Source: Candidatus Alcyoniella australis (GTDB lineage Bacteria; Lernaellota; Lernaellaia; JAVCCG01; Alcyoniellaceae). Taken from it: a DNA stretch of 24,942 nucleotides. The position numbers and the translations under genes were made by a program. Shown piece by piece: positions 3,552 through 24,942 of the stretch (position 1 is the stretch's first letter; each line of letters begins with the position of its first letter). The notes under the pieces are model-generated. The model was not told the DNA's origin. It was given only the letters and a program-made list of their open reading frames with translations, and made no database searches. The stretch covers positions 1-24,942 of the forward strand of contig JAVCCG010000012.1 in assembly GCA_030765605.1 (NCBI GenBank), read 5' to 3'.

Positions 3552-5171
3552 ATGGATCTGTTGCCCGGCAATCCAAAGACCACCAGGCGTATCAGTATCG
3601 TTGCGCTGGTCGGCCTGATCGTGCTGCTGGGCGTGAGCAACTGGATCTTTATCAGCTACAAGTCGGCCCCGCGCGGCGTGGACGAGCTCGACGTGTGGTC
3701 GGGCACGCTGATCTACATTACTCAGGGCTACGGCCTGGCCGGGCTGTTCACGGCTCAGCCGCAGGACTTCATGAACATGCCTCCGCTGCTGCCCTGGGCA
3801 GGCTGGATCGCCCGCGAGCTGGCCGGCCCGAGCTACGCGGCGATGGCCTTGGTGGTCACGCTGTTTCAGGCGTTGCTGCTGCTGGCGGTCTTCAACATCG
3901 GTCGGCGGCTGGCCGGCGATGTGGAGGGGCTGCTCGCGGCCTGCGTAGTGGCCTGCTCGCCGATCGTGATGCCCTTTGCCCGCACCTTTATGACCAACGT
4001 GCCGGCCCTGGCCATGGCGGCCTGCGTGATTTGGAGCCTGCTGTACTCCGAGCGCTTTACGCGGCGGGGCAGCGGAGTGCTGGTCGGCGTGGTGCTGGGC
4101 CTGGCGCTGCTTTCCGAGCGCGGCACGCCGCCGCTGCTGTTGAGCGTTCCGCTGCTGTACTACGCACTGCTCTCGCTGTACAGCGTGCGCCGTCGCCGCC
4201 GGGCGCTGCTGCGCGTGCTGGGCCGCGGCCTGTGCGCTGTTGCCATCGCCCTGGCGCTTTCCGCCCTGTATTTGCGGCAGTACCTGCGGCAGAACCTGGA
4301 TCACATCTCCGAGCTGGCCTCGGACGATTTCTTTCCCTCGGTGGGAAGCTGGCTCGACGCTCTGCCCGAGCCGCTGTTCTATCCCGTGGCGTTGTTCACC
4401 CATCAGTTAAGTTACGCTTGGGGATTGCTGCTGCTGATCGCCCTGCCGTTTTTCCTGCGACGGCTCGAGGGCGAGCGCGGCCTGATCCTGTTGGTGATGG
4501 TCTGGCCGATGGCGATCATGTCGACGTTCGCCACCAAGTACTTTGACTTCGATTTGGGCACGTTGATCGGCGCGGCGCTGGTGCTCGGCGTGGGCCTGGG
4601 CGCGATCAACCGGCCGCGTTTGCGCCGTGCGGCCCTGGGCCTGGGGTTCGGCACGGCGCTGTTGATGTTCTGGTTTATCCAGCCCGACCTGCTGCCCCAT
4701 CCGCAGTACCCGCCGCTGGTGCGGCTGTGGCTCGAAGACTTATACAAATTTGATCTGCGCACTCAGGACCAGCCGGTGTTTCAGGACGCGACCTACCGAC
4801 GGCTCGAGCAGCGCATCCCGCCGGGTCCGCACTACCTGTTCGTGATCCATGCGCCGGACGACGGTCGGGTGCGGACGCTGTTTTGCGAGATCGGCAACTT
4901 CGCCTGGTTGCACTACGGCGACGCGGACCAGGTGACGCTGATCGACCCGCAACTGCCCGCGGACGCGCCGCTGCTGATCGACGTCTGGGAGACCACGACG
5001 GCGCAGCGCGATCGGTTCGCTTCGCTGATCAAACGCCGCTCGTGCCCCTACATAATCCGCGATCCGCTGCCGCTGCCCGACCGCGGGAGCTGCTGCCGCA
5101 CGGTCTACGCCGACGAGCTCGACGGGGTCGAGGTACGCTGGAGCCTTTGCCGCTGGGCGGGCGCGTTGTGA
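3552..5171 (+). CDS. GT39-like (ArnT/PMT type) membrane glycosyltransferase, copy 1
   Basis: 539-aa polytopic protein of the GT-C fold. After the first transmembrane helix comes the acidic motif RGVDELD of the first extracytoplasmic loop, the likely catalytic Asp-Glu pair of PMT-type enzymes that use a polyprenyl-phosphate sugar. Further family features are PPLLPW, the helix pairs around RRLAGDVEGLLAACVVACSPI, MTNVPALA (in place of the more common TDxP) and SERGTPPLLL. The C-terminal 130 residues form a soluble, probably periplasmic domain with conserved cysteines (LFCEIGNFAWLHY, RRSCPYIIRD, SLC). The ATG at 3552 is preceded by GAGGA; the ATG at 3501 lacks a binding site. It overlaps copy 2 by GTGA. 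The acceptor is unknown; sugar transfer to lipid, glycan or protein are all possible. Confidence 0.88.
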   Translation: MDLLPGNPKTTRRISIVALVGLIVLLGVSNWIFISYKSAPRGVDELDVWSGTLIYITQGYGLAGLFTAQPQDFMNMPPLLPWAGWIARELAGPSYAAMALVVTLFQALLLLAVFNIGRRLAGDVEGLLAACVVACSPIVMPFARTFMTNVPALAMAACVIWSLLYSERFTRRGSGVLVGVVLGLALLSERGTPPLLLSVPLLYYALLSLYSVRRRRRALLRVLGRGLCAVAIALALSALYLRQYLRQNLDHISELASDDFFPSVGSWLDALPEPLFYPVALFTHQLSYAWGLLLLIALPFFLRRLEGERGLILLVMVWPMAIMSTFATKYFDFDLGTLIGAALVLGVGLGAINRPRLRRAALGLGFGTALLMFWFIQPDLLPHPQYPPLVRLWLEDLYKFDLRTQDQPVFQDATYRRLEQRIPPGPHYLFVIHAPDDGRVRTLFCEIGNFAWLHYGDADQVTLIDPQLPADAPLLIDVWETTTAQRDRFASLIKRRSCPYIIRDPLPLPDRGSCCRTVYADELDGVEVRWSLCRWAGAL

Positions 5172-6766
5172 GTTCGCCGCAGCGCGCGTTCGGTCCGGCG
5201 CGGATCGCCCTGGCCGGGCTGTTGCTGATCGTGCTGGTTGGCAACCTGGCGTCGATCGCGATGAAGTCCGCGCCGCGCGGTCCCGACGAGCTCGACGTGT
5301 TCTCCGGCACGTTGATCTACATCACCCAGGGCTACGGCGCTGCCGGACTGTTTACTGCCCAGCCGCACGACTTCATCAACTTTCCGCCGCTGCTGCCTTG
5401 GCTGGGCTGGCTGACAACATCGATTTTCGGCCCCAGCTACCTGAGCCTGGCGCTGATCCCTACGCTGTTCCAGCTGGCGCTGTTGCTGGCGCTGTTCGAC
5501 GTCGGCCGCCGCTTTGGCGGCGAATGGTGCGGCCTGCTGGCAGCCTGCGTGCTGGCCACGACCCCGGCGATTATGGCCTACAGCCGGGTGCTGATCACAA
5601 ATATTCCAGCCGTGGCCCTCGAGGGATTGGTGCTGTGGGCTCTGCTGCGCTCCGAGCGGTTTCAAAAATGGAATTACAGCTTGCTCGCCGGGCTGTTCAC
5701 GGGCCTGGCCTGTCTTGTCGAGCGCGGCACGCCGCCGCTGCTGCTGAGTTTGCCGCTGCTGTACTGGGCCGTGGTCTCGCTACGCAGCGCGCGGGCCCAG
5801 GGCGGCTCGCGGCTTAAAACGCTGGCGCGCATGGGCGCGGCCGCGGCCCTGGCGTTGGCGCTGAGCGGCGTGTACCTCTGGTCGTACTTCAACCGGCGTT
5901 TGGACCACATCGCGAACCTGGGAGCCAACGACGCCTACCCCCAGGTGCACCGGATTCTCGACTGGCTGCCAGAGCCGCTGTTTTACCCCGCGGCAATGCT
6001 GACCCATCAACTGAGCCTGATCTGGATCCTGCCGCTGCTGATCGCGCTGCCGCTGTTCGTGCGGCGGCTCGACGCGGAGCGCGGGCTGATCGGCCTGGCC
6101 GCGCTGTGGCCGATGGTGGCGATGGCGCCGTTTGCCACCAAGACCTTTAACTACGATTTGGGAAAATTCCCGGCCGTGGCGCTGGTGATCGCCGTGGGGC
6201 TGTGTTCGATCGAGCGTACGACCCTGCGGCGGGCGGCCGTCGGCCTGGGTCTGGGCGCGGCCGCGCTTTCGTTGTGGGTCTTGCAGCCGCAGTTGCTGCC
6301 GCATCCGCCGCGGCCCGCGCCGGTGCGGGCCTGGCTTTCCGAGCTTAACAACTTCGACCTGCTGGGCCACGACACGCCGGTGCTGCACGACGCTGTGCAG
6401 CGCCGCCTCCAAAAACGGCTGCCCGTGGGTCCGCAGTACGCATTCGTGATCAACGCGCCGCAATCCGAGCAGGTGTTCGCGCTGTTTTGCGAGATCGGCA
6501 ACTTCGGCTGGCTGCACTATCCGCAGAGCGATCAAATGCTGCGCATCGACCGCGCGCGGCCCGAGGGCGCCGAGCTACTGATCGATGTATGGGATCTGGA
6601 TCCGCAGCAGCGCGACGAATTGCGGCAGGTGTACAAGCGCCGTTCGTGCCCCTACATTATTGAGCAGGATCTGCCGCTGCCCGACCGCGCGTCCAATTGT
6701 CAACCGCTGTATGCCGACGTGATCGACGGGCAAGAGGTGCAATGGAGCCTGTGCCGCACACCGTAA
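5168..6766 (+). CDS. GT39-like membrane glycosyltransferase, copy 2
   Basis: 532 aa, clearly paralogous to the gene before it over its whole length: RGPDELDVFSGTLIYITQGY, PPLLPWLGW, ITNIPA, VERGTPPLLL, and a C-terminal domain with LFCEIGNFGWLHY, RRSCPYIIEQDLPLPDR and WSLCR. It is closer to copy 1 than to copy 3. I place the start at GTG 5168, which overlaps the stop of copy 1 (GTGA) and gives a short basic leader before the first helix (IALAGLLLIVLVGNL). The much longer open frame upstream is the shadow of copy 1. Translational coupling is likely. The predicted role is the same enzyme class with a different sugar donor or acceptor, which is inference. Confidence 0.87.
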   Translation: MSSPQRAFGPARIALAGLLLIVLVGNLASIAMKSAPRGPDELDVFSGTLIYITQGYGAAGLFTAQPHDFINFPPLLPWLGWLTTSIFGPSYLSLALIPTLFQLALLLALFDVGRRFGGEWCGLLAACVLATTPAIMAYSRVLITNIPAVALEGLVLWALLRSERFQKWNYSLLAGLFTGLACLVERGTPPLLLSLPLLYWAVVSLRSARAQGGSRLKTLARMGAAAALALALSGVYLWSYFNRRLDHIANLGANDAYPQVHRILDWLPEPLFYPAAMLTHQLSLIWILPLLIALPLFVRRLDAERGLIGLAALWPMVAMAPFATKTFNYDLGKFPAVALVIAVGLCSIERTTLRRAAVGLGLGAAALSLWVLQPQLLPHPPRPAPVRAWLSELNNFDLLGHDTPVLHDAVQRRLQKRLPVGPQYAFVINAPQSEQVFALFCEIGNFGWLHYPQSDQMLRIDRARPEGAELLIDVWDLDPQQRDELRQVYKRRSCPYIIEQDLPLPDRASNCQPLYADVIDGQEVQWSLCRTP

Positions 6767-8361
6767 AGCCGCCGAGGCCGCGCATCGAGCGCACGGTGCG
6801 CCTGGCCCTGGCCGGGTTGATCTTGATCTGTCTGACCGCGAACATGGCGTTCATCGCGCACAAATCCGCGCCGCGCGGACTGGACGAGCTCGACGTTTTC
6901 GCCGAGGGGGTCTACTTCCATACTGCGGGCGCGGGGCTTTTGGGGCTGTGGACGATGCAGACCGACGAGGAGATCGGCTGCCCGCCGCTGCTGCCCTGGG
7001 CCGGGCGGCTGTGCACCGCGCTGCTGGGGCGCGGCTACATGCAGATGGCGTTCGCCGCCACGCTGTTCCAGGCGCTGCTGCTGCTCTCGATGTACGGCAT
7101 CGGTCGCCGCCTCAGCGGTCCGGGGGCAGGGCTGCTCGCCGCGGCAATCGCCGCCACCTCGCCGATCATTATGAGCTACAGCCGGATCTTCACTACCAAC
7201 CTGCCGGCCCTGGCGATGATCGGTTGCGTGCTGTGGGCGCTGCTGTATTCCCAGCGCTTCACCCGCCGCCGCAGCGGGCTGCTGGTCGGCGCGCTGATCG
7301 CCCTGGCCAACCTCGCCGAGCGCGGCACTCCGCCGTTGGCGCTATCGCTGCCCGTGGTTTTCTGGTGCATGTTCTCGATCCTCAAGGCGCGCAAACAGCC
7401 CGAGGCGTTTAGGCGCGTGATCGTACAGGTCGTGATCGCGGCGCTGGTCGCCACGGCGCTCTCGGGCCGTTACCTCTACTTCTACTTCTTTCGTACGGCG
7501 AGCCACATCGCGGCCCTGGGAGCGCAGGACGTGTTCGGCTCGCAATCGCAGTTTGTGGTCGACCGGCTGCCCGAATGGCTGTTCTACCCGGCGACGCTGT
7601 TCGTGGTGCAGCTCAGCTTTGTCTGGGCCCTGCCGTTCGTGATCGCGCTGCCGTTCTTTTTACGGCGTTTCAGCGCGGAGAAGTTGCTGCTGATCTTGCA
7701 GACCCTCTGGCCGATGGCGGTGATGACGCCGTTTGCCTCTAAGGTCTATGACTTCGATCTGGGCGCGGTGGCCGGGGCGATTCCGATCGCGGCCGTGGGC
7801 CTGGCGTCGATCCCCTGGCGGTCGATCCGCGCCGTGCTGGGCGTGGCCGCGGGCCTGCTGGCCTGTCTGGCGTTCTGGGCGATGAATCCATCGCTGCTGC
7901 CCCAGCCGCAGTGGCCGCTGGCCGTGCGCGACTGGCTGGGGCACATGAACAACGTGGGCCTGCTGATGCCCTCGGACACGGTCTATCAAAATCGCATTGC
8001 CCAAGATCTGGCCCGGCGCGTGCCGCCAGACGAGCGTTGGCTGTTCATCTACAACGTCGAGCCCTCGGGGCCGCTGGACAGCCTAGTGTGCGAGACCGCC
8101 AACTTCAGCTGGCTGCAATTTCCGCACAGCGAGCAGTACGCGATCCTCGACCCCAACGTGCCGCAGGACGGGACGATCGAGGTCGAGATCCGTCCGCTTA
8201 GCGCGGAGCAGCGCCGACTGTACCGCGCGACCTACTTCCGCCCGCCGTGCGCGATGGTCGGCTACGACCCGCCGCTCGTGCCCGAACGCAGCGCACCGTG
8301 CCGGCCGATCTACAGCGCGGAGGTCGACGGCCGCGAGTTTCTCTGGAAACTCTGCGAGTAG
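6742..8361 (+). CDS. GT39-like membrane glycosyltransferase, copy 3 (divergent)
   Basis: 539 aa, third tandem paralogue. It keeps RGLDELDVFAEG, PPLLPWAGR, TTNLPALA and AERGTPPLAL, and the C-terminal motifs VCETANFSWLQF and LWKLCE. It has changed the segment after the DELD motif (GVYFHTAGAGLLGLW instead of GTLIYITQGYG) and the first C-terminal motif (CETANFSW for CEIGNF). The ATG at 6742 has AGAGG just upstream and lies inside the 3' end of copy 2, a 25-bp overlap. It is followed after nine bases by the GH31 gene. The divergence next to the presumed active-site loop suggests a different substrate, which cannot be named from sequence. Confidence 0.87.
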   Translation: MEPVPHTVKPPRPRIERTVRLALAGLILICLTANMAFIAHKSAPRGLDELDVFAEGVYFHTAGAGLLGLWTMQTDEEIGCPPLLPWAGRLCTALLGRGYMQMAFAATLFQALLLLSMYGIGRRLSGPGAGLLAAAIAATSPIIMSYSRIFTTNLPALAMIGCVLWALLYSQRFTRRRSGLLVGALIALANLAERGTPPLALSLPVVFWCMFSILKARKQPEAFRRVIVQVVIAALVATALSGRYLYFYFFRTASHIAALGAQDVFGSQSQFVVDRLPEWLFYPATLFVVQLSFVWALPFVIALPFFLRRFSAEKLLLILQTLWPMAVMTPFASKVYDFDLGAVAGAIPIAAVGLASIPWRSIRAVLGVAAGLLACLAFWAMNPSLLPQPQWPLAVRDWLGHMNNVGLLMPSDTVYQNRIAQDLARRVPPDERWLFIYNVEPSGPLDSLVCETANFSWLQFPHSEQYAILDPNVPQDGTIEVEIRPLSAEQRRLYRATYFRPPCAMVGYDPPLVPERSAPCRPIYSAEVDGREFLWKLCE

Positions 8362-8370
8362 GGGGAGGGC

Positions 8371-11352
8371 ATGCGTGATCAACGGCTGCTGATCTTGCTT
8401 CTGGCCGGCAGTCTGTTGCTGTTGACGGCGCTGGCCGCCTGCGAAGACGACCCTGCGGACGATGACGACGGAGGCGCGCCCGAGGCGGACGACGACGACG
8501 ATGAGGGCGATTGCGGGGCCGAACAGCTCTGCGCCGGGCTGGTCGATTGTGAAGGGTGGCAGTCCGCGGATCGCTGCCTGGAATGGCTGGCCAATGAGAA
8601 CAACTGCTACGACATGCCCGGATACGTCGACTGCGGCTGCCAGTGCATCGACCAGCCCAATTGCGAGAGTTTCCTGTTCTGCATGCAGTCCTGCGCCCAG
8701 CACAACTGCCCGTCGATGCCCGTGCGGCCCGCGGACCCTCTGATCCCGGGCATCCCCGCACAGAAGCAGCCGCCCGATCCCGCAAGGATCGAGATTGAGG
8801 AGTACGACGACTCGCTGCTGATCAGCGGCCCGGTGCTGGAAGTACGCGTGACCCTCGACCCGTTCGGATTCGAGGTGCGGCGCGCGGCGGACGGATCGAC
8901 GATCCTTGCCACGCAACAAGGGGCCCTGGGCGACGGATTCGCGCCGATCAGCTTTACCCAAAACAATGGCGCCTATTGGAACCACTGGTACTGGGGCTAT
9001 CGCGGCTACAGCGGCGAGGATCAGCCATGGGCGCATTCCCTACGTGCGATCGACTACAGCGTGCTCGATGACCGGGTGCTGATCGAAGTTCGCGCCGATC
9101 CGGTGGACCGCGGTCGGACGCTGTTCGTGGTCGGGCCGTTCTATGAAAACGCGGTGCGCATTGCTGCGCGCGTGGCCTCGGGCTCGTACTTCGTCAACCG
9201 CGTGGGATTCAGCTTTTACTCACCGCAAACGGAACGTTTCGTCGGTTTCGGCGAACGCTTCAACGGACTGGACCAGCGCGGCAAGCGGCTCGAGACTTGG
9301 CTCGAGGAGGGCGGGATCGAGCCCGGATCGCTACGCCCGACCCTCGAGGCGCTGTTTCCCGAGATCACGCCGGAGTGGACGCTCCCCTCGGGCGAGGACG
9401 GCTCGTACTGCCCGCTGCCGTTCTTCATCTCCAACCAGGGCTACGGCTTTCTGGCCGACGTGCCCGAGCCCAGCCTGTTCGATCTGGCCGCCTCCGACTC
9501 CGACATCTGGCGCGTGAGCGTGGAGTCCGACACCCTGCAGGCCATCGTTTTTGCCGGTCCCGATCCCGCGGACGTGATCGAGCAATACACCGCGCGCACC
9601 GGCCGCAGCCAGGTGCCGCGGCGCTGGACCCTGGCGCCGTGGAACATGTTCGTCGGCTATCGCGGCCTGGGTATGCAGCAGGTTGCGCGGCGCTTCCGCG
9701 AGCTGGACATCCCCTCGAGCGTGACCCACAGTTGGACCAACATCACGCCCTCGGGCTCCTACCGCGGATCTGAAAACGCCCTGGCCGCGAGCAACGCCGC
9801 GCTGCACGACCTGGGGTACAAGAGCCTGTGCTACCTCCAGCCGCGGATCGACCACGATGATTTTCCCGAGCTGTGGGACGAGGCTGACGCCCTGGGCCAC
9901 CTGACGCGCGACGCCGAGGGGCGCAGCTACATCCAGACCGTGTACCTCAACCTGATCAACCTCGCGGAGTTTCACGTCAGCCACGTGGATTTTACCCACG
10001 AGGGCGTCGATGCCTGGTGGCACTCGGTGCTGCAGCTGATCCTCGACCTGGGCTACGACGGGACGATGTACGACTTCGGCGAGTACACGCCGCCCGACGC
10101 CTATTTCTCCGACGGCCGCGGCGGCCACTATTGGCACAACCCTTATCCGCTGATCTATCAGCGCTCGGGCTACCGTTTCTTCAGCGCCCTGGACGACGAT
10201 CCCCTCGACGGCCTGGCCCCGGACTATGTCTACTTCGTGCGCTCGGGCTACGTGGGCTCGCAGAACTGGACCTACGCCATGTGGTCGGGCGATCCCAACG
10301 CGGGCTGGAGCCTCGCCGACGGGCTGCCGGCCCAGGTCAGCGCGGGGATCAACGTCGGCCTGAGCGGCATTGCCTTCTGGGGCAGCGACATCGGCGGCTA
10401 TCACGCCTACCTCACGCCCGCGCCCACCGTGGAGCTGACCGCGCGCTGGTACGAGTTCGGCGCGTTCTGCGGCCTGATGCGCGACATGACCGCGCCGGAG
10501 ATCAGCCAGGGGCAACGGCCGCTGCCCCTGGACGACCCGCAGCTGACCTACGTGGTGCGGCGCTACCAGAAGCTGCGCACCCAGCTCGTGCCGTACATCG
10601 TCAACGCGGCCTGGGAATACCGCGAAAGCGGCCTGCCGTTGATGCGCGCGCCGCTGCTGGTCTTCCCCCACGACCCGGCGTGCTGGGAGATGCGCTGGGC
10701 CTACATGTTCGGCCCGGATCTGCTGGTGGCGCCGGTGGTCGAGCAGGGGGCGCGCCAGCGCACGCTGTACCTGCCGCAGGGGAGTTGGGTCGAGCTGTGG
10801 CCGCTGACCGAATACGACGGCGACGAGTCCGGAGCGGGCAGCGGCGGCTTTCGCATTGGCGGACGGCCGATCGAGGGCGGCCGGGTGGTCACGGTCGAGG
10901 CCGCGTTGGACCAGATCCCGCTGTTCGTGCGGCTTGGCGCGCTGATCCCGCTGGTCGATCCGGCGGTCGACAGCTTCGCCCCGGCCGATCCTCCGCCGGA
11001 TTACGAGGTGACCACGGCCGACGACCTGGCGCTGCTGCTGCACGCCTGGGCCTTCCCGCTCGATGTCTCCTCGACCACGTTGGCCGACGGCAGCCTGCTG
11101 CGCATTGAGGTTGGCGACAGCGCCCTGAGCATCGAGCGCACACCGTACGGCGACCAGGCCGAGCTGATCCTGCAGATCGTCTGGCCCGAGCAGCTGGCCG
11201 CGCCCACGGCAGTGGGCGGCCTGGATTTCGTCGAGGGCGGCGACCCGCTGCACCTCGATCCGGGAACTTGGACTTGGAGCGCCGAGCGCAACTGCCTGGC
11301 GTTGCACGGCCGGCCCGGCGAGGGATCGTTCACGATCAGCAGCGGCGGCTGA
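8371..11352 (+). CDS. GH31-family glycosidase lipoprotein with Cys-rich N-terminal module
   Basis: 993 aa. The lipobox LAAC (Cys24) is followed by an Asp-rich linker (residues 25-47) and a module with 12 cysteines between residues 48 and 113. A GH31 retaining alpha-glycosidase domain follows: an N-terminal beta-domain with GFGERFNGLDQRG, then the (beta/alpha)8 barrel. The likely nucleophile is Asp568 in YDFGEYTP and the likely acid/base Asp641 in WSGDPNAGW, followed by GIAFWGSDIGGY. The DFGEY form of the nucleophile motif resembles YihQ-type sulfoquinovosidases more than the WxDMNE of classical alpha-glucosidases. I do not see a convincing YihQ sulfonate-binding pattern, so specificity is open. 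GGGGGAGG lies before the ATG. As a lipoprotein it acts in the periplasm or on the cell surface, and it is the last gene of the glycosyltransferase operon. Confidence 0.9.
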   Translation: MRDQRLLILLLAGSLLLLTALAACEDDPADDDDGGAPEADDDDDEGDCGAEQLCAGLVDCEGWQSADRCLEWLANENNCYDMPGYVDCGCQCIDQPNCESFLFCMQSCAQHNCPSMPVRPADPLIPGIPAQKQPPDPARIEIEEYDDSLLISGPVLEVRVTLDPFGFEVRRAADGSTILATQQGALGDGFAPISFTQNNGAYWNHWYWGYRGYSGEDQPWAHSLRAIDYSVLDDRVLIEVRADPVDRGRTLFVVGPFYENAVRIAARVASGSYFVNRVGFSFYSPQTERFVGFGERFNGLDQRGKRLETWLEEGGIEPGSLRPTLEALFPEITPEWTLPSGEDGSYCPLPFFISNQGYGFLADVPEPSLFDLAASDSDIWRVSVESDTLQAIVFAGPDPADVIEQYTARTGRSQVPRRWTLAPWNMFVGYRGLGMQQVARRFRELDIPSSVTHSWTNITPSGSYRGSENALAASNAALHDLGYKSLCYLQPRIDHDDFPELWDEADALGHLTRDAEGRSYIQTVYLNLINLAEFHVSHVDFTHEGVDAWWHSVLQLILDLGYDGTMYDFGEYTPPDAYFSDGRGGHYWHNPYPLIYQRSGYRFFSALDDDPLDGLAPDYVYFVRSGYVGSQNWTYAMWSGDPNAGWSLADGLPAQVSAGINVGLSGIAFWGSDIGGYHAYLTPAPTVELTARWYEFGAFCGLMRDMTAPEISQGQRPLPLDDPQLTYVVRRYQKLRTQLVPYIVNAAWEYRESGLPLMRAPLLVFPHDPACWEMRWAYMFGPDLLVAPVVEQGARQRTLYLPQGSWVELWPLTEYDGDESGAGSGGFRIGGRPIEGGRVVTVEAALDQIPLFVRLGALIPLVDPAVDSFAPADPPPDYEVTTADDLALLLHAWAFPLDVSSTTLADGSLLRIEVGDSALSIERTPYGDQAELILQIVWPEQLAAPTAVGGLDFVEGGDPLHLDPGTWTWSAERNCLALHGRPGEGSFTISSGG

Positions 11353-17047: not shown

Positions 17048-18322
17048 ATGAGACGCATCAAAAAAATTACGCTGATCACGATCCTGTTGATCGCCACCGC
17101 GGCCCTGGCAATTTCGGTGGCGGCCCAGGGACAAAAGATAACGCGCGAGAACTGGACCAAGACGGTCTGTTTCAGCGCCGATTTAATCAAACCGGGCGTC
17201 AGCACCGTGTCCAAGGCCAACATGGATCAGGTCAAGGACATGCTCACCCAGGGCGTACAGGTGCTGGTCAACAACTACGACCTGAAGTTCCGCGTGATCG
17301 ACTACCGGCCCGAGGCGCCCAGCGACGGCTACATCGATGCCACCAACAAAGGGTTGGGAATGACCAAGCTGGGCGACCCCAATGCGCCTGCGCGCCAGAG
17401 GGCGCTCTCGGGTTACACCGGCGGCCTGCCGTTCCCCAATCCGCAGACCGGGGTCGAGGTCGCCTGGAACTACCACTACAACTACTCGGGCGACGACGCT
17501 GACAACGAGTTCGGCGTTTACTGGGTCTCGGCCAAGCGCGGCGTCGAGCGCTCCGAGCAGTGGCGCTGGCTGTACATCGTCAAGAGCCTCAACCGCAGCG
17601 ACATCGATCCGCCGTACTTCGAGGACATGAAGAAGGCGAACATCCAGTACCACTCGATGACGATCTGTCGCAAACCGCTGGACAAGAAGGGCTTCACCGC
17701 GCTGTATCACCGCTTTGACGAGCCCAAAGACCAAGAGGGCTGGATCTACGTACCCCAGCAGCGCCGCGCCACGCGCTTCAGCTTCGGCACCCGCGGCGAC
17801 GCCTGGAACAACACCGACATGCTCTACGAAGACGTGCGCGGCTACATGGGCTTCGCCGAGTGGATGACCTGGGAGCTGCTTGACAAAAAGGTGCTGCTGG
17901 CCCCGGCGCACTCGGGTACGCCCTACGGCTTGGACAACGCGGACAAGGTCTTCGACTTCAAGAATGCGCCCTACTGGAATCCGCGTTGGAAGTGGGAGCC
18001 GCGGCCGATGTACGTGGTGCAGGCCACTCCCAAGTTCCGCGACTACCCCTACAGCAAGATGGTGTTCTACATCGACGGCGAGACCTACCAGATCCTGATC
18101 AAAGAGATGTGGGACAAGAAGGGCCAGCTGTGGAAGGTTCAGGTCAACGGTTTCGACGAGTCGTCCGATCCGTTGAGCATGCCGGGAAACATTGCCGGTT
18201 CGCTGATGGTCGACCTGCAGTCCGAGCACGCCACGGCATTTGTCTGGCACGAGATGAAGGCCAACGTCGGGCTCGAGCCGAGCCTGTTCACACTCTCCGA
18301 GCTGCGCAAGCTCGCACAGTAG
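17048..18322 (+). CDS. DUF1329 family periplasmic protein
   Basis: 424 aa with a signal peptide (ITLITILLIATAALAISVAAQ). The body matches DUF1329: SGYTGGLPFPNPQTGVEVAW near residue 120, NYHYNYSGDD, the mid-domain QQRRATRFSFGTRGDAW, DLLYEDVRGYMG-like LYEDVRGYMGFAEW, YPYSKMVFYIDGETY, and the C-terminal end PSLFTLSELRKLAQ. Proteins of this family have a LolB-like curved beta-sheet in structural predictions, consistent with carrying lipid-like ligands across the periplasm; that role is inference here. The start at ATG 17048 follows AAGGGAGAAG. It is about 60 nt after the DUF1302 gene and 16 nt before the next gene, in one operon. Confidence 0.9.
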   Translation: MRRIKKITLITILLIATAALAISVAAQGQKITRENWTKTVCFSADLIKPGVSTVSKANMDQVKDMLTQGVQVLVNNYDLKFRVIDYRPEAPSDGYIDATNKGLGMTKLGDPNAPARQRALSGYTGGLPFPNPQTGVEVAWNYHYNYSGDDADNEFGVYWVSAKRGVERSEQWRWLYIVKSLNRSDIDPPYFEDMKKANIQYHSMTICRKPLDKKGFTALYHRFDEPKDQEGWIYVPQQRRATRFSFGTRGDAWNNTDMLYEDVRGYMGFAEWMTWELLDKKVLLAPAHSGTPYGLDNADKVFDFKNAPYWNPRWKWEPRPMYVVQATPKFRDYPYSKMVFYIDGETYQILIKEMWDKKGQLWKVQVNGFDESSDPLSMPGNIAGSLMVDLQSEHATAFVWHEMKANVGLEPSLFTLSELRKLAQ

Positions 18323-19409: not shown

Positions 19410-21985
19410 CGCAGACCGTTAGAGAGACACTTCATCCCAGCTCCCTGCGGCTGGGCCGATTTATAATCCGCCGCCGGCTGCCGATCCTGATCATCCTCAG
19501 CGTGCTCACGGCGCTGTTCCTGTTGGCGGCCCTGCGCGTGGGGTTCAAGAACCCGACCATCGACCTCTTCCCGCGCAACCACCCCTACGTCGAGACCTTC
19601 GTCCAGTACCAGGACACCTTCGGCGGCGCTGGCGTGGTGATCCTGGCGTTGGAGGTCCAGAGCGGCGACGTGTTCAACGTCGAGACCCTGGCCAAGGTGC
19701 GCACGCTGACCAAGGCGCTCGAGCTGTTGCCCGCGGTCAACAACTACCAGGTGCTTTCCATCGCCCAGCGCAAGATCAAGCGCATCTCGGTCGAGGACGT
19801 CGACGGCTACCCGGCCTATCGCGCCGACCCGATCATGTGGCCCGACGTACCGCGCACCGCCGAGGAAATCGCCAAGCTGCGGCAGACGGTCTACACCACG
19901 GGCACGATTCACGGCTCGCTGGTCTCGCGCGACGACCAGGCCGTGCTGGTGGTGGCCGGATTCTTTGACAAGGGGCTCGAGTCGCCCGGCTCGCCCTTGA
20001 TCGAAATCGAGCGCGAGATCGCATCCAAAGAGGGCGCGGATACCGAGGAGAAAGTCGAGCAGCGTTTGACCCTGCTGCGCAACCGCGCCGCGGACCAGCC
20101 GTGGTCGGTCGACGACACGCTCTACGCCGCACTGCGCAATATTGCCGACTCGGTCGAGGACGAGAACACCAGCGTGCGGATGATCGGCGCGCCGGTGCTG
20201 CTGGGCTCGGTCTACCAGCAGCTTCCCAAGCTGGGCTACATCTTCGCGATCACCGTGCTGGTTACGCTGCTGGTGCTCTTCGCCTACTTCCGCGACCTGC
20301 GCGGCGTGCTGATTCCGTTGAGCACGGCGGCGGTCAGTGCGATCTGGGGCGTGGGCATGCTCGGCGTGCTCGACCTGCTGCGCCCCACGATGCAGCCCTG
20401 GGTCACCGAACATATTGCCAATCCGTACTTCCGCGACCTGCTGGTCGGGCTGTTTAACGCCTACTTCAATCCGCTGGTGATTGTCGTACCGTTCATCATC
20501 AGCGCCACGGCCACCAGCCACGCGGTGCAACTCATGGGCCGCTTCAAGGAGGAGTACGCCGAGTGCCGCGATCGCCGAGAGGCCGCGGTGGCAACCTTCT
20601 CCGGGCTGCTCAAACCCGGACTGCTCTCGATATTCACCGACGCCGCGGGCGTGTTCATCGTAATCGTCACGCCGATCCCGCTGATGGAGAAGCTGGCGCT
20701 GATGGGCAGCTTCTGGGTGATCTCGATCATCGTCTCGGACTTGATCCTCAACCCGATTTTGCTCAGCTACATTCCGCCGCCCAAAGATAAGCCGGCCAAG
20801 GAACACCTGGTCGACCGCATGTTGGGCACCCTGGGCCGCTGGGTCGTGGGCTGGCAGCGCTGGGTGATCGTCGTTGTGGCGCTGGTCGTTTTCGGCATCG
20901 GCCTATTAATGGCCAACCGGATCGTGATCGGCGACGTGCATCCGGGCACGCCGCTGCTCTGGCCGAGTTCGAGCTACAACCAGGACACCGCGCACATCGC
21001 CGAGCGCTTCGGCAACACCGAGATCATGAGCGTGGTGGTCGAGGGCAGCGACCCCGGGGCGATCAAAAACCCCGAGGTGCTCAAGACCATGGAAGCGCTA
21101 CAGCGCGACCTGGAGATGCTGCCCGAGGTCACGACCACCAGCTCGATCGCCGACCTGCTCTCAATGGTCACCCGCGTGCAGCAGCGCGGCCACCCGTTCT
21201 ACGAGCTGATCCCCAACGAATACACCGAGGCCGCGCTCTACCTCGAGCTGATCTTCGGCAACGCCGAGCCCGGCGATCTCAACCGTTTCATCACCACCGA
21301 TTTTAAAGACGCCAACATCTCGGTCTACCTCTCGGACCACAAGGGCGATACCCTACGTGCGGTGATCGCCCGCACCCAGCGCTTCATTGAGGCGCACCCG
21401 ATGGAACAGGCGCGCTTCCGTCTGGCGGGCAACATGGGTGGGCTGCTCGCCGCGGTCAACGAGACCATCGTCGCCTCCCAGGCGCGAGTGACGATAGTGG
21501 CCTTCATGATCGTCTTCCTGTTCTGCGCGATCATCTACCGCTCGGTAGTGGCCGGCCTGTTCTTCCTGGTGCCGATCGCCGTCTCGAACTACATGACCTA
21601 CGCGGTGATGGGCGCGGTGGGCATCGGCCTGGACGTCAACGCGCTGCCCGTGATCTCGCTGGGGGTCGGGCTGGGCGTGGACTTCGGGCTGTACGTTATC
21701 GGCCGACTCGAAGAGGAGTTCCGTCTCAGCGGCGATTTGGCCGCGGCCACGGCGCAGTCGATCAAGACCGCGGGCAAGGCTGTACTGTTCACCGCCTCGA
21801 CGATGGTCGCCGGCGTGGTGTTCTGGGCCTTCTCCTATCTGCGCTTCCAGGCCGAGATGGGAATCCTGCTCGCGTTCTGGATGATCACCAGCATGCTCGG
21901 CGGACTGATCCTGCTGCCGACCCTGGTGATGCTGATTAAGCCGCGGTTCATCACCAAGCAGCATCCGGCCAAAAACGCGGAGTGA
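19406..21985 (+). CDS. RND/MMPL family inner-membrane transporter
   Basis: 859 aa with the RND layout: first helix at residues 25-47, a large extracytoplasmic loop to about 270, five helices to about 465, a seventh helix near 485-507 (VIVVVALVVFGIGLLMANR), a second loop to about 690, and a last helix cluster containing GVGLGVDFGLYVIGR, the conserved Gly-x-Asp motif region of MMPL/sterol-sensing-domain proteins. This is the COG1033 predicted exporter type, not the drug-efflux HAE1 type. It is proton-motive-force driven by family analogy and likely moves lipid-like cargo. It overlaps the YCF48 gene by ATGA and closes the DUF1302-DUF1329-YCF48-RND operon. No membrane-fusion-protein or TolC gene is present, so the DUF1302 barrel may serve as the outer-membrane part. 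Confidence 0.93.
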   Translation: MTQTVRETLHPSSLRLGRFIIRRRLPILIILSVLTALFLLAALRVGFKNPTIDLFPRNHPYVETFVQYQDTFGGAGVVILALEVQSGDVFNVETLAKVRTLTKALELLPAVNNYQVLSIAQRKIKRISVEDVDGYPAYRADPIMWPDVPRTAEEIAKLRQTVYTTGTIHGSLVSRDDQAVLVVAGFFDKGLESPGSPLIEIEREIASKEGADTEEKVEQRLTLLRNRAADQPWSVDDTLYAALRNIADSVEDENTSVRMIGAPVLLGSVYQQLPKLGYIFAITVLVTLLVLFAYFRDLRGVLIPLSTAAVSAIWGVGMLGVLDLLRPTMQPWVTEHIANPYFRDLLVGLFNAYFNPLVIVVPFIISATATSHAVQLMGRFKEEYAECRDRREAAVATFSGLLKPGLLSIFTDAAGVFIVIVTPIPLMEKLALMGSFWVISIIVSDLILNPILLSYIPPPKDKPAKEHLVDRMLGTLGRWVVGWQRWVIVVVALVVFGIGLLMANRIVIGDVHPGTPLLWPSSSYNQDTAHIAERFGNTEIMSVVVEGSDPGAIKNPEVLKTMEALQRDLEMLPEVTTTSSIADLLSMVTRVQQRGHPFYELIPNEYTEAALYLELIFGNAEPGDLNRFITTDFKDANISVYLSDHKGDTLRAVIARTQRFIEAHPMEQARFRLAGNMGGLLAAVNETIVASQARVTIVAFMIVFLFCAIIYRSVVAGLFFLVPIAVSNYMTYAVMGAVGIGLDVNALPVISLGVGLGVDFGLYVIGRLEEEFRLSGDLAAATAQSIKTAGKAVLFTASTMVAGVVFWAFSYLRFQAEMGILLAFWMITSMLGGLILLPTLVMLIKPRFITKQHPAKNAE

Positions 21986-22026: not shown

Positions 22027-22938
22027 ATGGAACTTGAGCAGTTACAGCCGATAGTGCCGGGGATGTTCCTGTTGCCCGCCGAGGACAACGGTCGCTTTCC
22101 CCGCAGCCACTGCATCGTGGTGCGCGGCGAGACTGAGGCGCTGATCGACGCGGGCTGCGGCATCGAGCGTCTGCGAGCCCTGCGCGAGCGCTGGACTCCC
22201 GAACTGGTGATCGCCAGCCACTCGCATCCGGACCACGTGGGCGGGCTGTGGCTGTTCGACGACTGTCGAATCTTCAGCCCGTCGCAACACTCAGAGATCT
22301 TCTGGCGCTTTGACCCGCAGTCCCAGCGGCTGACCGAGCCCGGCGAGATCGCGAAGCAGTGGATCGAGTTCGTGACGCAGGCCACGGGCGTGCGCGAGGT
22401 AGGGTTCACCGATCTCTACGACGACGGACACGAGTTCCAGCTCGGTCGAATAAAGTTGCAGGCGATCCACGCGCCGGGGCATTTGGACGACGCCTACGTA
22501 TTCTTCGAGCCGCATCACGGCGTGGCCCTGACATTCGACATCGACCTCACCGGCTTCGGCCCGTGGTACGGCCATCGCGAGTGCGACATCGACCAAATGC
22601 TCGACGCCATTGAGCTGGTGCGCGCGCTGAAACCCAAGCTCGTTGTCTCGTCGCACAAGGGGATTGTGCGCGACGACATCGACGGGCGGCTGGTGCGCTA
22701 CGCCGCGGTGATCGACCAGCGCGATGCACGGCTGATCGAGCTGCTGCGCAACCCGCAGACCCTCGATCAGCTCGTGGAGCAATCGCCGATTTACGGCGGG
22801 TTCCCCTATGCGCCGCTGGTGATGCGCTATTGGGAGCGGCAGATGATCGACAAACACCTGGCGCGTCTGCACCAGCGCGGCCTGGTCGTGCGCCAGGGCG
22901 ATAGCTGGGCTACTGCTCCACGCGGCGGCCGATCTTAA
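22027..22938 (+). CDS. Metallo-beta-lactamase-fold hydrolase
   Basis: 303 aa. Zinc ligands are visible: HSHPDH (His65, His67, Asp69, His70), His148 or His152 in HAPGHLDD, Asp171 in TFDIDL and His210 in SSHKG. The C-terminal 80 residues resemble the winged-helix tail of LACTB2/glyoxalase-II-like members (TLDQLVEQSP, MIDKHLARLHQRGLVV). Members of this group hydrolyse thioesters, phosphodiesters or RNA, and the exact substrate cannot be read here. The ATG at 22027 has no clear ribosome-binding site, but the first residues ELEQLQPIVPGMFLLPA fit the family start. It lies 41 nt after the RND gene. Its last 55 nt lie in the 59-bp direct repeat, so the insertion next to it left the reading frame complete. 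Confidence 0.9.
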   Translation: MELEQLQPIVPGMFLLPAEDNGRFPRSHCIVVRGETEALIDAGCGIERLRALRERWTPELVIASHSHPDHVGGLWLFDDCRIFSPSQHSEIFWRFDPQSQRLTEPGEIAKQWIEFVTQATGVREVGFTDLYDDGHEFQLGRIKLQAIHAPGHLDDAYVFFEPHHGVALTFDIDLTGFGPWYGHRECDIDQMLDAIELVRALKPKLVVSSHKGIVRDDIDGRLVRYAAVIDQRDARLIELLRNPQTLDQLVEQSPIYGGFPYAPLVMRYWERQMIDKHLARLHQRGLVVRQGDSWATAPRGGRS

Positions 22939-22942
22939 GCTC
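22884..22942. repeat. 59-bp perfect direct repeat, left copy
   Basis: Identical base for base to 24152-24210 and in the same orientation; the match breaks at both ends (22883 t versus g, 22943 c versus g). This copy carries the last 18 codons plus stop of the metallo-hydrolase gene. It also contains, at 22910-22912, the minus-strand stop triplet that ends the gene on the far side. Confidence 0.97.
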
Positions 22943-23111
22943 CGGACTTTATCTCTACGTCCACCCCGGCGGTGTGCTTGACGATGCGCTGACCACCTGG
23001 CTCACGGCCCTCGATATCAGCTCTATTGCAGGCAAGGGTTTCCAGAAATGACAGAGAGGATTGAGATGCTGATTGACTGATCGTGAGGAATAGTATCGAG
23101 GTGTATGTCAT
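22935..23111 (-). CDS. Small ORF of 58 aa at the left end of the inserted segment
   Basis: Open frame from ATG 23111 to TAA 22935-22937, whose stop lies in the left 59-bp repeat. The second half reads like real protein (TLACNRADIEGREPGG, QRIVKHTAGVDVEIKSGA), while the first half is Ser/Gln-rich and less convincing. No good ribosome-binding site. It follows hicA by 64 nt. It may be the 3' remnant of a longer gene. The plus strand over 22943-23055 also has a readable frame (LYLYVHPGGVLDDALTTW), so coding is unproven on either strand. I do not recognise a family. Confidence 0.3.
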   Translation of the reverse strand: MTYTSILFLTISQSASQSSLSFLETLACNRADIEGREPGGQRIVKHTAGVDVEIKSGA

Positions 23112-23128
23112 GGCCGCGTCTCATCCGC

Positions 23129-23142
23129 GCCCGGGGACGGGC
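23129..23142. other. Short GC hairpin downstream of hicA
   Basis: GCCCG-GGGA-CGGGC on the plus strand, 34 nt past the hicA stop. There is no T-run after it on the minus strand, so its use as a terminator is doubtful. Confidence 0.25.
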
Positions 23143-23175
23143 TATGACTGTTGATCTATACTGTGGTGGGTCAGG

Positions 23176-23421
23176 CTATTCGGAAAGTTGTTTCGCTAAC
23201 CATCGGCGGCCCAAACCTGTTTGCTTGGGACCCAAGACTGCATTAAGCGTGCCGACAGGCAATATTCCCCTCTTATTCGGCACGACGGTTATTTTTTTCC
23301 CCGAATGATATTTCTTAAAAAGAGAAATCCCATGGTTTGTTTTTCTAACGGACTCCCAGCCGTCCTTCTGTAATAAGGCTATCAGCTTCTTGCCGCTTAT
23401 AGAAGGAAGATCCTTGGACAT
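23176..23421 (-). CDS. hicA: HicA-family toxin (mRNA interferase)
   Basis: 81 aa, the usual size. The HicA fold pattern is SGKKLIALLQKDGWESVRKT, then NHGISLF with the likely catalytic His30, then KKITVVPNKRGILPVGTLNAVL. HicA is a dsRNA-binding-fold ribonuclease that cleaves mRNA when not bound by HicB. In many members the residue before the catalytic His is Ser or Gly (GSH); here it is Asn (TNH). The ATG at 23421 has AAGG directly upstream, within the end of hicB, and the genes are 3 nt apart, so the antitoxin is made first and the two are coupled. This is the AT-rich part of the window. Confidence 0.85.
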   Translation of the reverse strand: MSKDLPSISGKKLIALLQKDGWESVRKTNHGISLFKKYHSGKKITVVPNKRGILPVGTLNAVLGPKQTGLGRRWLAKQLSE

Positions 23422-23424
23422 ACC

Positions 23425-23748
23425 TTAGGCGTATTGATGTGTGGGGATACGCTGGGGAAAGCACTGGATAAAGCTCGTTTTATCGGCAGGAACCGTGCAT
23501 GTGGCTTTCTTTGGTTTTGAACGATGAAATTCAATCCCATGCCTCTCGAAAAACGCGTCTCTTTCTTCAAGATCTTCGAGCGTATTAAGATGTAAGGTAA
23601 CTAAATCCTCGATTTCTGCTTGCACCCTTTCGAGGGTACGCGAGAAGGTCGCCGTACCCAATTCGATGCATTCTGCGGTCCAAATCCCGTCCTGCTCTTT
23701 ACGGAATTTAAACGTTAGCACGATGTAACCAGCGTGCCTGCTTGTCAT
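23425..23748 (-). CDS. hicB: HicB-like antitoxin
   Basis: 107 aa. The N-terminus YIVLTFKFRKEQDGIWTAEC, then IELGTATFSRTLERVQAEIEDLVTLHL, is the HicB degenerate RNase-H-like fold that blocks the toxin active site. No clear C-terminal helix-turn-helix or ribbon-helix-helix is visible; the tail is SKPKKATCTVPADKTSF. If it autoregulates, DNA binding may reside in an unrecognised part or in the complex. Start set at ATG 23748, which has AGGAGA 6-7 nt upstream; the TTG at 23754 is too close to that site. It is the first gene of the pair, placed before the toxin, an order common in hicBA-type loci. Confidence 0.8.
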   Translation of the reverse strand: MTSRHAGYIVLTFKFRKEQDGIWTAECIELGTATFSRTLERVQAEIEDLVTLHLNTLEDLEERDAFFERHGIEFHRSKPKKATCTVPADKTSFIQCFPQRIPTHQYA

Positions 23749-23787
23749 TGCCAATCTCCTATTGACTCATAAAACAATTTTCTAACT

Positions 23788-23798
23788 ACTATAATAGT
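23788..23798. promoter_or_regulatory. Palindrome over the hicB -10 box, candidate operator
   Basis: ACTAT-A-ATAGT is a perfect 11-bp palindrome that includes the -10 hexamer of the hicB promoter. Its position suits autorepression by the HicAB complex. It is short and could be chance in AT-rich DNA. Confidence 0.4.
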
Positions 23799-23819
23799 CC
23801 CTTACAACCGCTTCGTCAA
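23791..23819 (-). promoter_or_regulatory. Promoter of hicBA
   Basis: Minus-strand TTGACG (23814-23819) and TATTAT (23791-23796), each five of six to the sigma-70 consensus, with exactly 17 nt between them. The start of transcription would be near 23784, about 36 nt before the hicB ATG. Confidence 0.7.
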
Positions 23820-23912
23820 TCATTTAAAATATTCTAAGTTACTAATATTGTAGGGTTTTGTAAATGCGTCCCGCTTATGTGGGAAGGGTTGGTCGAAAAT
23901 GCTTCCAATTAC
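23820..23912. other. AT-rich spacer upstream of hicBA
   Basis: No gene or convincing repeat. The stretch 23820-23870 is rich in A and T and could act as an upstream promoter element; the base composition returns to GC-rich after about 23930. Confidence 0.4.
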
Positions 23913-24151
23913 CTACTGTCGCACCGCAGTATGTACCATACAGGCACCGGAGTGGCTGGGCTTGTGCCAAGCGTCGTTATCGAAGCTCCATTCGTGCGTC
24001 GGATCGGCGCTCTCGTTCTCGGTCAGGCAGGTCTCCTTGTTGTCCAGCGCCCGGCCAACGGCCACGACGAAATATAGGCCCCCGCCCATTACACCCACGC
24101 TGACCTGCAGGTCTAGTTCGCAGGGTTCCCACACGTCCCATTCCGCGGCCG
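23913..24151 (-). pseudogene. Truncated reading frame at the right end of the inserted segment
   Basis: The minus-strand frame is open from the right junction (24151) down to a TAG at 23913-23915. From the junction it reads PAAEWDVWEPCELDLQVSVG, then GGGLYFVVAVGRALDNKETC, then ADPTHEWSFDNDAW, which has the look of a real extracellular protein. Upstream of the junction the frame runs into the 59-bp repeat and then antisense-like sequence of another gene, so its true 5' end is missing. GTG 24134 could start a 73-aa product, but no ribosome-binding site is seen. I do not recognise the family. Most likely it is the 3' remnant of a gene brought in with the segment. Confidence 0.4.
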
Positions 24152-24210
24152 GGTCGTGCGCCAGGGCGATAGCTGGGCTACTGCTCCACGCGGCGGCCGA
24201 TCTTAAGCTC
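24152..24210. repeat. 59-bp perfect direct repeat, right copy
   Basis: Same sequence and orientation as 22884-22942. This copy carries the last ten codons plus the TAG stop (24178-24180) of the minus-strand propeller gene. Confidence 0.97.
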
Positions 24211-24942
24211 GGTGTCCACCGAGTACAGCGCGTACAGCTCGCCCGCCGAAGTCCAACTCAGCTCCGCCTCGTACCCCAGGCGCGCGGGGTCGATCAACGA
24301 ACTCACCCACTGCTGGTCGATATCCAGGGCGTAATACAGCCGCGAATCGACCTGGCTGTCCTCGCGGTCGGTGAACACCACGTGCGGCCGGTCCGTGCCA
24401 TCCAAGGCCAGGGCGATCACGTAGGTCCGCTGTTCAAGCTGGGCAACGCTTTCGTGCAGCCACTGGCCGTTGTCCCGAATCTTGAGCGCGATCTCGTAGG
24501 AGAACGGGTCGAGCAGCAACAGGTTCGGCCTGCCGCTGGAGTCGATCTCCAAGTCCAGGAACGACGGGCCCGAGTAGTCGTCGATTGTCAGGTCGTCCCA
24601 GGCCGAGCCGTTTTTCGCGCAGAGGTGGATCGTGTTGTTCTCGTTCTCGGCGCCGACCTCCTCGACGAACGCCACCCATGGTTCGTCCGCGTTGTCGAGC
24701 GCCAGGCGCAGCTCGCGCAGCAGGCGCGATCCGGCGTGCACCTGGCTGAAGCTCCATTCACCGTCGTATAGCCCGTAGATCACCTGCGAGAGCGTCGCCT
24801 TGTCCAGCATCGTGAACTTGTACCAGACCAGGTGGATGCGGTCCTGGCCGTCGATGGCCGCGGCGAGCATGCCGCCGCACTCGGGCATCGGCTCGATAGT
24901 CTGATTGACCCATTCGCCGCTGACCAGCGTGGTGTGCAGCAG
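24178..24942 (-). CDS. Propeller-like repeat protein, 3' part (5' end outside window)
   Basis: The frame is open to the window edge, giving at least 254 codons plus stop; an internal ATG at 24888 is probably not the start because the sequence before it (LVSGEWVNQTIEP) continues the same repeat. About five repeats of 45-50 residues have the pattern G-x-W, an acidic/hydrophobic strand, then A-(L/I)-D-x-x-(D/G)-R-x-H-(L/V): AAIDGQDRIHLVW, LALDNADEPWVAF, LEIDSSGRPNLLL, LALDGTDRPHVVF. This resembles BNR/sialidase-like propellers of secreted or surface lipoproteins. No catalytic residues recognised. It converges on the metallo-hydrolase gene and is separated from it by the hicAB insertion. Confidence 0.85.
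   Translation of the reverse strand: MLHTTLVSGEWVNQTIEPMPECGGMLAAAIDGQDRIHLVWYKFTMLDKATLSQVIYGLYDGEWSFSQVHAGSRLLRELRLALDNADEPWVAFVEEVGAENENNTIHLCAKNGSAWDDLTIDDYSGPSFLDLEIDSSGRPNLLLLDPFSYEIALKIRDNGQWLHESVAQLEQRTYVIALALDGTDRPHVVFTDREDSQVDSRLYYALDIDQQWVSSLIDPARLGYEAELSWTSAGELYALYSVDTELKIGRRVEQ

Follow-up and report, generated by a model that had tools for sequence, protein, structure and literature searches.

A predicted hicBA toxin–antitoxin segment between long direct repeats at the convergent ends of two genes in Candidatus Alcyoniella australis

Candidatus Alcyoniella australis carries a predicted hicBA toxin–antitoxin operon in a segment of ~1.2 kb that is enclosed by a long direct repeat. 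The segment is probably a foreign insertion at the site where the 3' ends of two convergent genes overlapped, and ~59–67 bp of the target would have been duplicated in the event. We regard the locus as a genuine further example of a type of event already described, which is here extended to hicBA. The window, namely the whole stretch of DNA that was analysed (24,942 bp), is a whole contig of a metagenome-type assembly with 4.29 Mb in 157 contigs. The features of the locus are as follows, in window positions.

22027–22938, plus strand: MBL-fold metallohydrolase gene (PF00753, E 1.8e-13), whose last residues (VVRQGDSWATAPRGGRS, then stop) are encoded by repeat copy 1
22876–22942, no strand: direct repeat copy 1, 59 bp perfect from 22884, 66/67 from 22876
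22941–23051, plus strand: left remnant, an open C-terminal-like coding stretch (SGLYLYVHPGGVLDDALTTWLTALDISSIAGKGFQK, then stop) that begins at the left junction
22943–24151, no strand: putative inserted segment, 1209 bp, 50% GC versus 64% in both flanks
23176–23421, minus strand: predicted hicA toxin gene (PF07927, E 2e-8)
23425–23754, minus strand: predicted hicB-like antitoxin gene, upstream of hicA, with 23754 or an ATG two codons further in as its start
23913–24150, minus strand: right remnant, an open GC-rich coding-like stretch (from AAEWDVWEPCELDLQVSVGVMGGG to AVRQ, then stop) that runs inward from the right junction
24144–24210, no strand: direct repeat copy 2, 59 bp perfect from 24152, 66/67 from 24144
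24178–24942, minus strand: lipoprotein-like gene with BNR repeats, 3' part (BNR_4 at E 1.6e-4, which is under the curated cut-off); the gene continues on contig C55

The direct repeat and the enclosed segment

The two 59-bp copies (22884–22942 and 24152–24210) are identical in an alignment of the window. The match extends leftward to 22876 and 24144, where 66 of 67 positions agree and the single mismatch, T or G, lies at position 8 of the 67-bp form. In shuffled windows (n=20, dinucleotide model), the longest exact repeats measured 14–17 bp. Hence, the perfect repeat around 1209 bp of unlike DNA, as given in the preliminary description, is borne out by the identity of the copies and by the GC contrast. 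A whole-genome search with the 59-mer returned the two copies as the only strong matches, with the next best at E ~0.07. The 59-mer with different cargo, which the same description had proposed to look for, occurs neither elsewhere in the genome nor in six class-mates, and a 32-bp core of the 59-mer has no match in viral contigs.

An assembler may join unrelated pieces at a shared k-mer. The metagenome-type, 157-contig origin of the sequence and the contig end lying 732 bp beyond repeat copy 2 are in favor of such an artefact. The right end of the window shares exactly 127 bp with contig C55, and exact overlaps of the same length were found between contig ends in 18 sampled pairs, a pattern characteristic of an assembler run with k=127. 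The 127-bp k-mers are longer than the repeat and span both copies into unique sequence, so that a k-mer artefact is very unlikely. The suspicion that 59 itself reflects a k-mer length thus falls away, as 59 is far below the systematic overlap. Moreover, the window is free of N, and an identity over 59 bp is not something that an assembler can invent. Taken with these points, misassembly is extremely improbable.

The segment between the repeats hosts two genes on the minus strand in the order antitoxin–toxin. The HicA protein matches PF07927 with 34.6 bits, above the cut-off of 27, and is 50–53% identical to HicA of genome G195. Its partner of 109 residues matches DUF7387 and, weakly, HicB-like PHROGs, and is 38–39% identical to the partner of the G195 HicA, where the gene order is the same. 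The HicA-family gene and the adjacent HicB-like gene are therefore both present as needed for a HicBA module, which is a predicted toxin–antitoxin pair, and the pair originally read from the open reading frames is retained. Like known HicAB/HicBA modules, this one has a HicA over the Pfam cut-off next to a HicB-like partner; it differs in having the antitoxin first and a partner that curated libraries match only weakly to HicB.

Two remnants lie between the repeats and hicBA. Both are short and GC-rich, run inward from the junctions and close in a stop codon. They may be captured 3' ends of two other genes, the segment having perhaps been taken from between a convergent pair. Neither remnant has a family match and the right one has no convincing protein relative, so that their identity as gene ends is a reading of the sequence. 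An end-remnant resemblance (GLYxxV..G..LD) was considered as an inverted repeat and dropped, since it reached a shuffle p of 0.015 at the protein level and nothing at the DNA level. Terminal inverted repeats were absent when the two segment ends were aligned against each other, and neither the list of open reading frames nor the family search revealed a transposase or integrase within the segment. These searches agree with the first reading of the segment, which had noted all three absences. DNA relatives of the segment were found neither in the same genome nor in plasmids or phages.

Other repeats occur in the same genome. A survey of 1.63 of its 4.29 Mb revealed a single further long repeat that is solitary and near-perfect and has an unlike AT-rich interior; it is located in a phage-like region (L188, G000:C113). 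Its copies, at 17697–17800 and 19505–19608, match over 104 nt at 90% and over 83 nt at 98.8%, and represent the duplicated 5' end of a phage-like gene (19505–19936). The insert has 41% GC and open reading frames of 104 and 368 aa; the longer one resembles the neighbor of 356 aa. Within the window, positions 3660–8358 hold three tandem units of ~1.6 kb that are 60–80% alike and are probably paralogous membrane-protein genes.

The flanking genes and their convergent ends

The two copies of the repeat play different coding roles. Relatives of the hydrolase are present in four class-mates, the nearest ones belonging to other families and being 37–49% identical, and their tails can be aligned through the motif GDSW. 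Positions 1 to ~30 of the repeat encode this conserved tail. On the other side, the last 10 residues of the lipoprotein-like protein (ELKIGRRVEQ, then stop) are encoded by the last ~33 positions of the repeat in copy 2. Some relatives of this protein in class-mates align to residue 244 and one to residue 249 of 254. As the first half of copy 1 encodes the hydrolase tail and the last half of copy 2 encodes the end of the lipoprotein-like gene, one ancestral copy could have served both genes. The simplest ancestor would thus have had a single 59-mer in which the convergent genes overlapped by ~29 bp at their 3' ends.

We infer this empty site from what each copy encodes, the related genomes compared being of the same class and of other families. 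In the class-mates, the DNA past the stop codons of the hydrolase relatives has no likeness to the repeat, and a hydrolase scan of genome contigs for the empty site gave no match.

Both neighboring genes had been described as intact. This holds for the hydrolase. The minus-strand gene is cut by the contig end. Its N-terminal part on C55 (L060, G000:C55, 1–567) begins like a lipoprotein and is out of frame with the part in the window near C55 position 200. Either damage to the lipoprotein-like gene or an error in the sequence near the contig end could account for this frame break.

Possible routes of insertion

We favor an insertion with a long target duplication. A foreign segment with a complete hicBA operon, and possibly with scraps of two genes at its ends, would have entered the overlap between the hydrolase and lipoprotein-like genes. 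Duplication of ~59–67 bp of the target would let each neighbor keep its own end. The duplication could result from the fill-in of a widely staggered break after DNA capture, with neither a transposase nor a dedicated enzyme taking part. Alternatively, replicative template switching with captured DNA may have produced it, again with no transposase. Recombination between the repeats would restore the empty site and leave the cell without antitoxin, by which the addiction module would be retained. That the toxin–antitoxin pair penalizes its own loss through the repeats is plausible.

An insertion sequence or transposon was rejected as the source, since transposase and terminal inverted repeats are both absent and the duplication is 59–67 bp rather than short; its length had rightly been called atypical of insertion sequences. 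The closest description in the literature is that of "insertion with long target duplication", which was drawn from a comparison of Helicobacter pylori strains for restriction-modification genes (Nobusato et al. 2000, Gene 259:99, as cited in PMC1643837, PMC3031569 and PMC3154945). In these articles, the target duplications of restriction-modification systems are long and variable (PMC3031569, PMC1643837). The window has the marks of this kind of insertion, namely a long direct repeat together with the absence of transposase and terminal inverted repeats. As far as these accounts go, the insertions share with the present one an addiction-type gene pair, no recognizable transposase, and long, variable direct duplications of the target. 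They differ in that the cargo here is a toxin–antitoxin pair that makes no DNA-cutting enzyme and that the empty site here is a reconstruction.

Another likeness is found in Microcystis aeruginosa PCC 7806, in which a ParE/ParD-like module lies between two identical 152-bp direct repeats (PMC7935541). Both loci have a toxin–antitoxin pair with an identical long direct repeat on each side. However, the Microcystis repeats are 152 bp in length, contain a 16-bp inverted repeat and begin 14 bp past a stop codon (PMC7935541), whereas the window repeat consists of the coding ends of two genes. No direct report linking long target duplications to toxin–antitoxin loci was found in a search that covered mainly the open literature.

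Homologous recombination offers a further route. A circle already carrying the 59–67-bp stretch, taken earlier from a relative, could have integrated by a single crossover, and the mismatch at position 8 of the 67-bp repeat could mark a slightly different incoming copy. The donor circle must then have carried the exact overlap of two host genes, and no such DNA was found in plasmids or phages. We assign this route a low probability.

Integron gene cassettes share with the locus a coincidence in length, their attC sites being known as "59-base elements", and a toxin–antitoxin cargo. An integron cassette was rejected, as the repeat is coding DNA whose palindromic folding does not exceed chance (z 0.5) and no array is present. 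An island of the tyrosine-recombinase type with its own integrase was also rejected, given the lack of an integrase among the open reading frames and families of the segment. CIME-type islands, which are flanked by att sites and lack an integrase, and genomic islands at tRNA ends resemble the locus in having a direct repeat at gene 3' ends; the window differs in having no integrase and no second att site, and in that the site is an overlap of protein genes rather than a tRNA.

Flanking repeats at other hicBA loci

The nearest hicBA relative (L065, G195:C137) lies between imperfect direct repeats of 54 nt at 9907–9960 and 11034–11087, which are 1127 bp apart. The two copies are 70% identical and contain an 18-bp perfect block. 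This pattern resembles a core with arms and is unlike the gene-end duplications. Because of this flanking repeat, the left and right flanks were compared for all hicA loci fetched.

Several of these loci are clear cases. In L242 (G229:C4, 1098–1784), an 87-bp copy of the nuoG start with 8 mismatches lies after nuoF; hicA, hicB and the intact nuoG come next, and the nuoG ATG is eight bases past hicB. In L231, a 71-bp piece of the pckA 3' end recurs, with 1 mismatch, beyond hicBA. These two loci show which copy is the orphan, so that they are most naturally read as insertions with duplication. In L210, a repeat of 108 bp at 97% lies next to der, a name given to this gene from its sequence alone. 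L204 (G059, 717–2063) has two tandem hicBA pairs, one of which is between direct repeats of ~112–125 nt, with 112 nt matching at 92%. The flanking repeats are unrelated in sequence and are located at gene 3' ends, at gene 5' ends and between genes. The nuoG case illustrates that such an insertion can lie between neighboring genes in a core respiratory operon and leave behind a short duplicate of a gene start.

The main rival to an insertion with target duplication is that a recombinase acting in trans integrated a non-autonomous island at a specific site, in which case the 59 bp would represent attL and attR at the overlapping gene 3' ends. Both the length of the repeat and its place at a gene 3' end suit tyrosine-recombinase islands, and the core-like block in the G195 repeat is consistent with such integration. 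Against it, the segment has no integrase by open reading frames and families, the 59-mer occurs at a single locus in the genome with no second site, its single-strand fold is no better than that of shuffled sequences (z 0.5), and no clear inverted core is present. The repeats at other hicBA loci are also unrelated in sequence, and one is at a gene 5' end. Hence, nothing points to the enzyme in trans that had been offered as a possible origin, and its probability is small though appreciable.

Aside from the clear cases, weaker matches were seen between flanks. Those in L205 are paralogous genes, those in L057 and L245 are in or like repeat-rich intergenic DNA, and in L241 the second copy is at a contig end. 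Settings of the repeat-rich type would suit a reading in which the copies in the window are older dispersed elements, with hicBA recombined between them and no target duplicated. As the 59-mer is coding sequence at gene ends with no further copy in its own genome, we judge this reading improbable. Most hicBA loci, including close relatives in G336, G300 and G365, have no flanking repeat.

We then compared the frequency of flank repeats reaching a score of 80. They occur at 11 of 58 hicA loci, a count that includes the weaker matches (paralogous genes, repeat-rich intergenic DNA and the contig-end copy), versus 5 of 89 control stretches (Fisher p=0.012, exploratory). The controls comprise 57 unrelated loci, 2 of which reach the score, and 32 tiles of other genomes, 3 of which do so; one of these tiles (L066) overlaps with a hicBA locus, and this reduces the contrast. 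Versus tiles of the same genome as the window, where 10 of 466 reach the score, the 11 of 58 give p=2e-6, likewise exploratory. The enrichment is exploratory because the test was devised after the first matches, the weaker cases were counted, and the control sets are limited to unrelated loci and tiles.

The parallel loci hint at a more general behavior, which we put forward tentatively and hold to be possible rather than probable. Small toxin–antitoxin modules may recurrently enter the genomes of distant bacteria without a transposase, duplicating 60–110 bp of the target, and addiction would keep in place insertions that could otherwise excise themselves. On this view, illegitimate integration in general would yield long target duplications, which addiction modules bring to light, and restriction enzymes would not be what produces them. 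This would bear on how solitary toxin–antitoxin modules move without a transposase: were hicBA commonly to insert with long duplications of the target, in the manner of restriction-modification units, no restriction enzyme could be essential to the route. The direct repeats would then also provide a built-in way to undo each insertion, and the notion of addiction preventing loss would be directly testable.

The number of HicA matches varies within the class. HicA scans across genome contigs and viral contigs gave no confirmed locus, and the genome of the window has only one HicA match, with 6–8 in each of the class-mates G001, G003 and G005.
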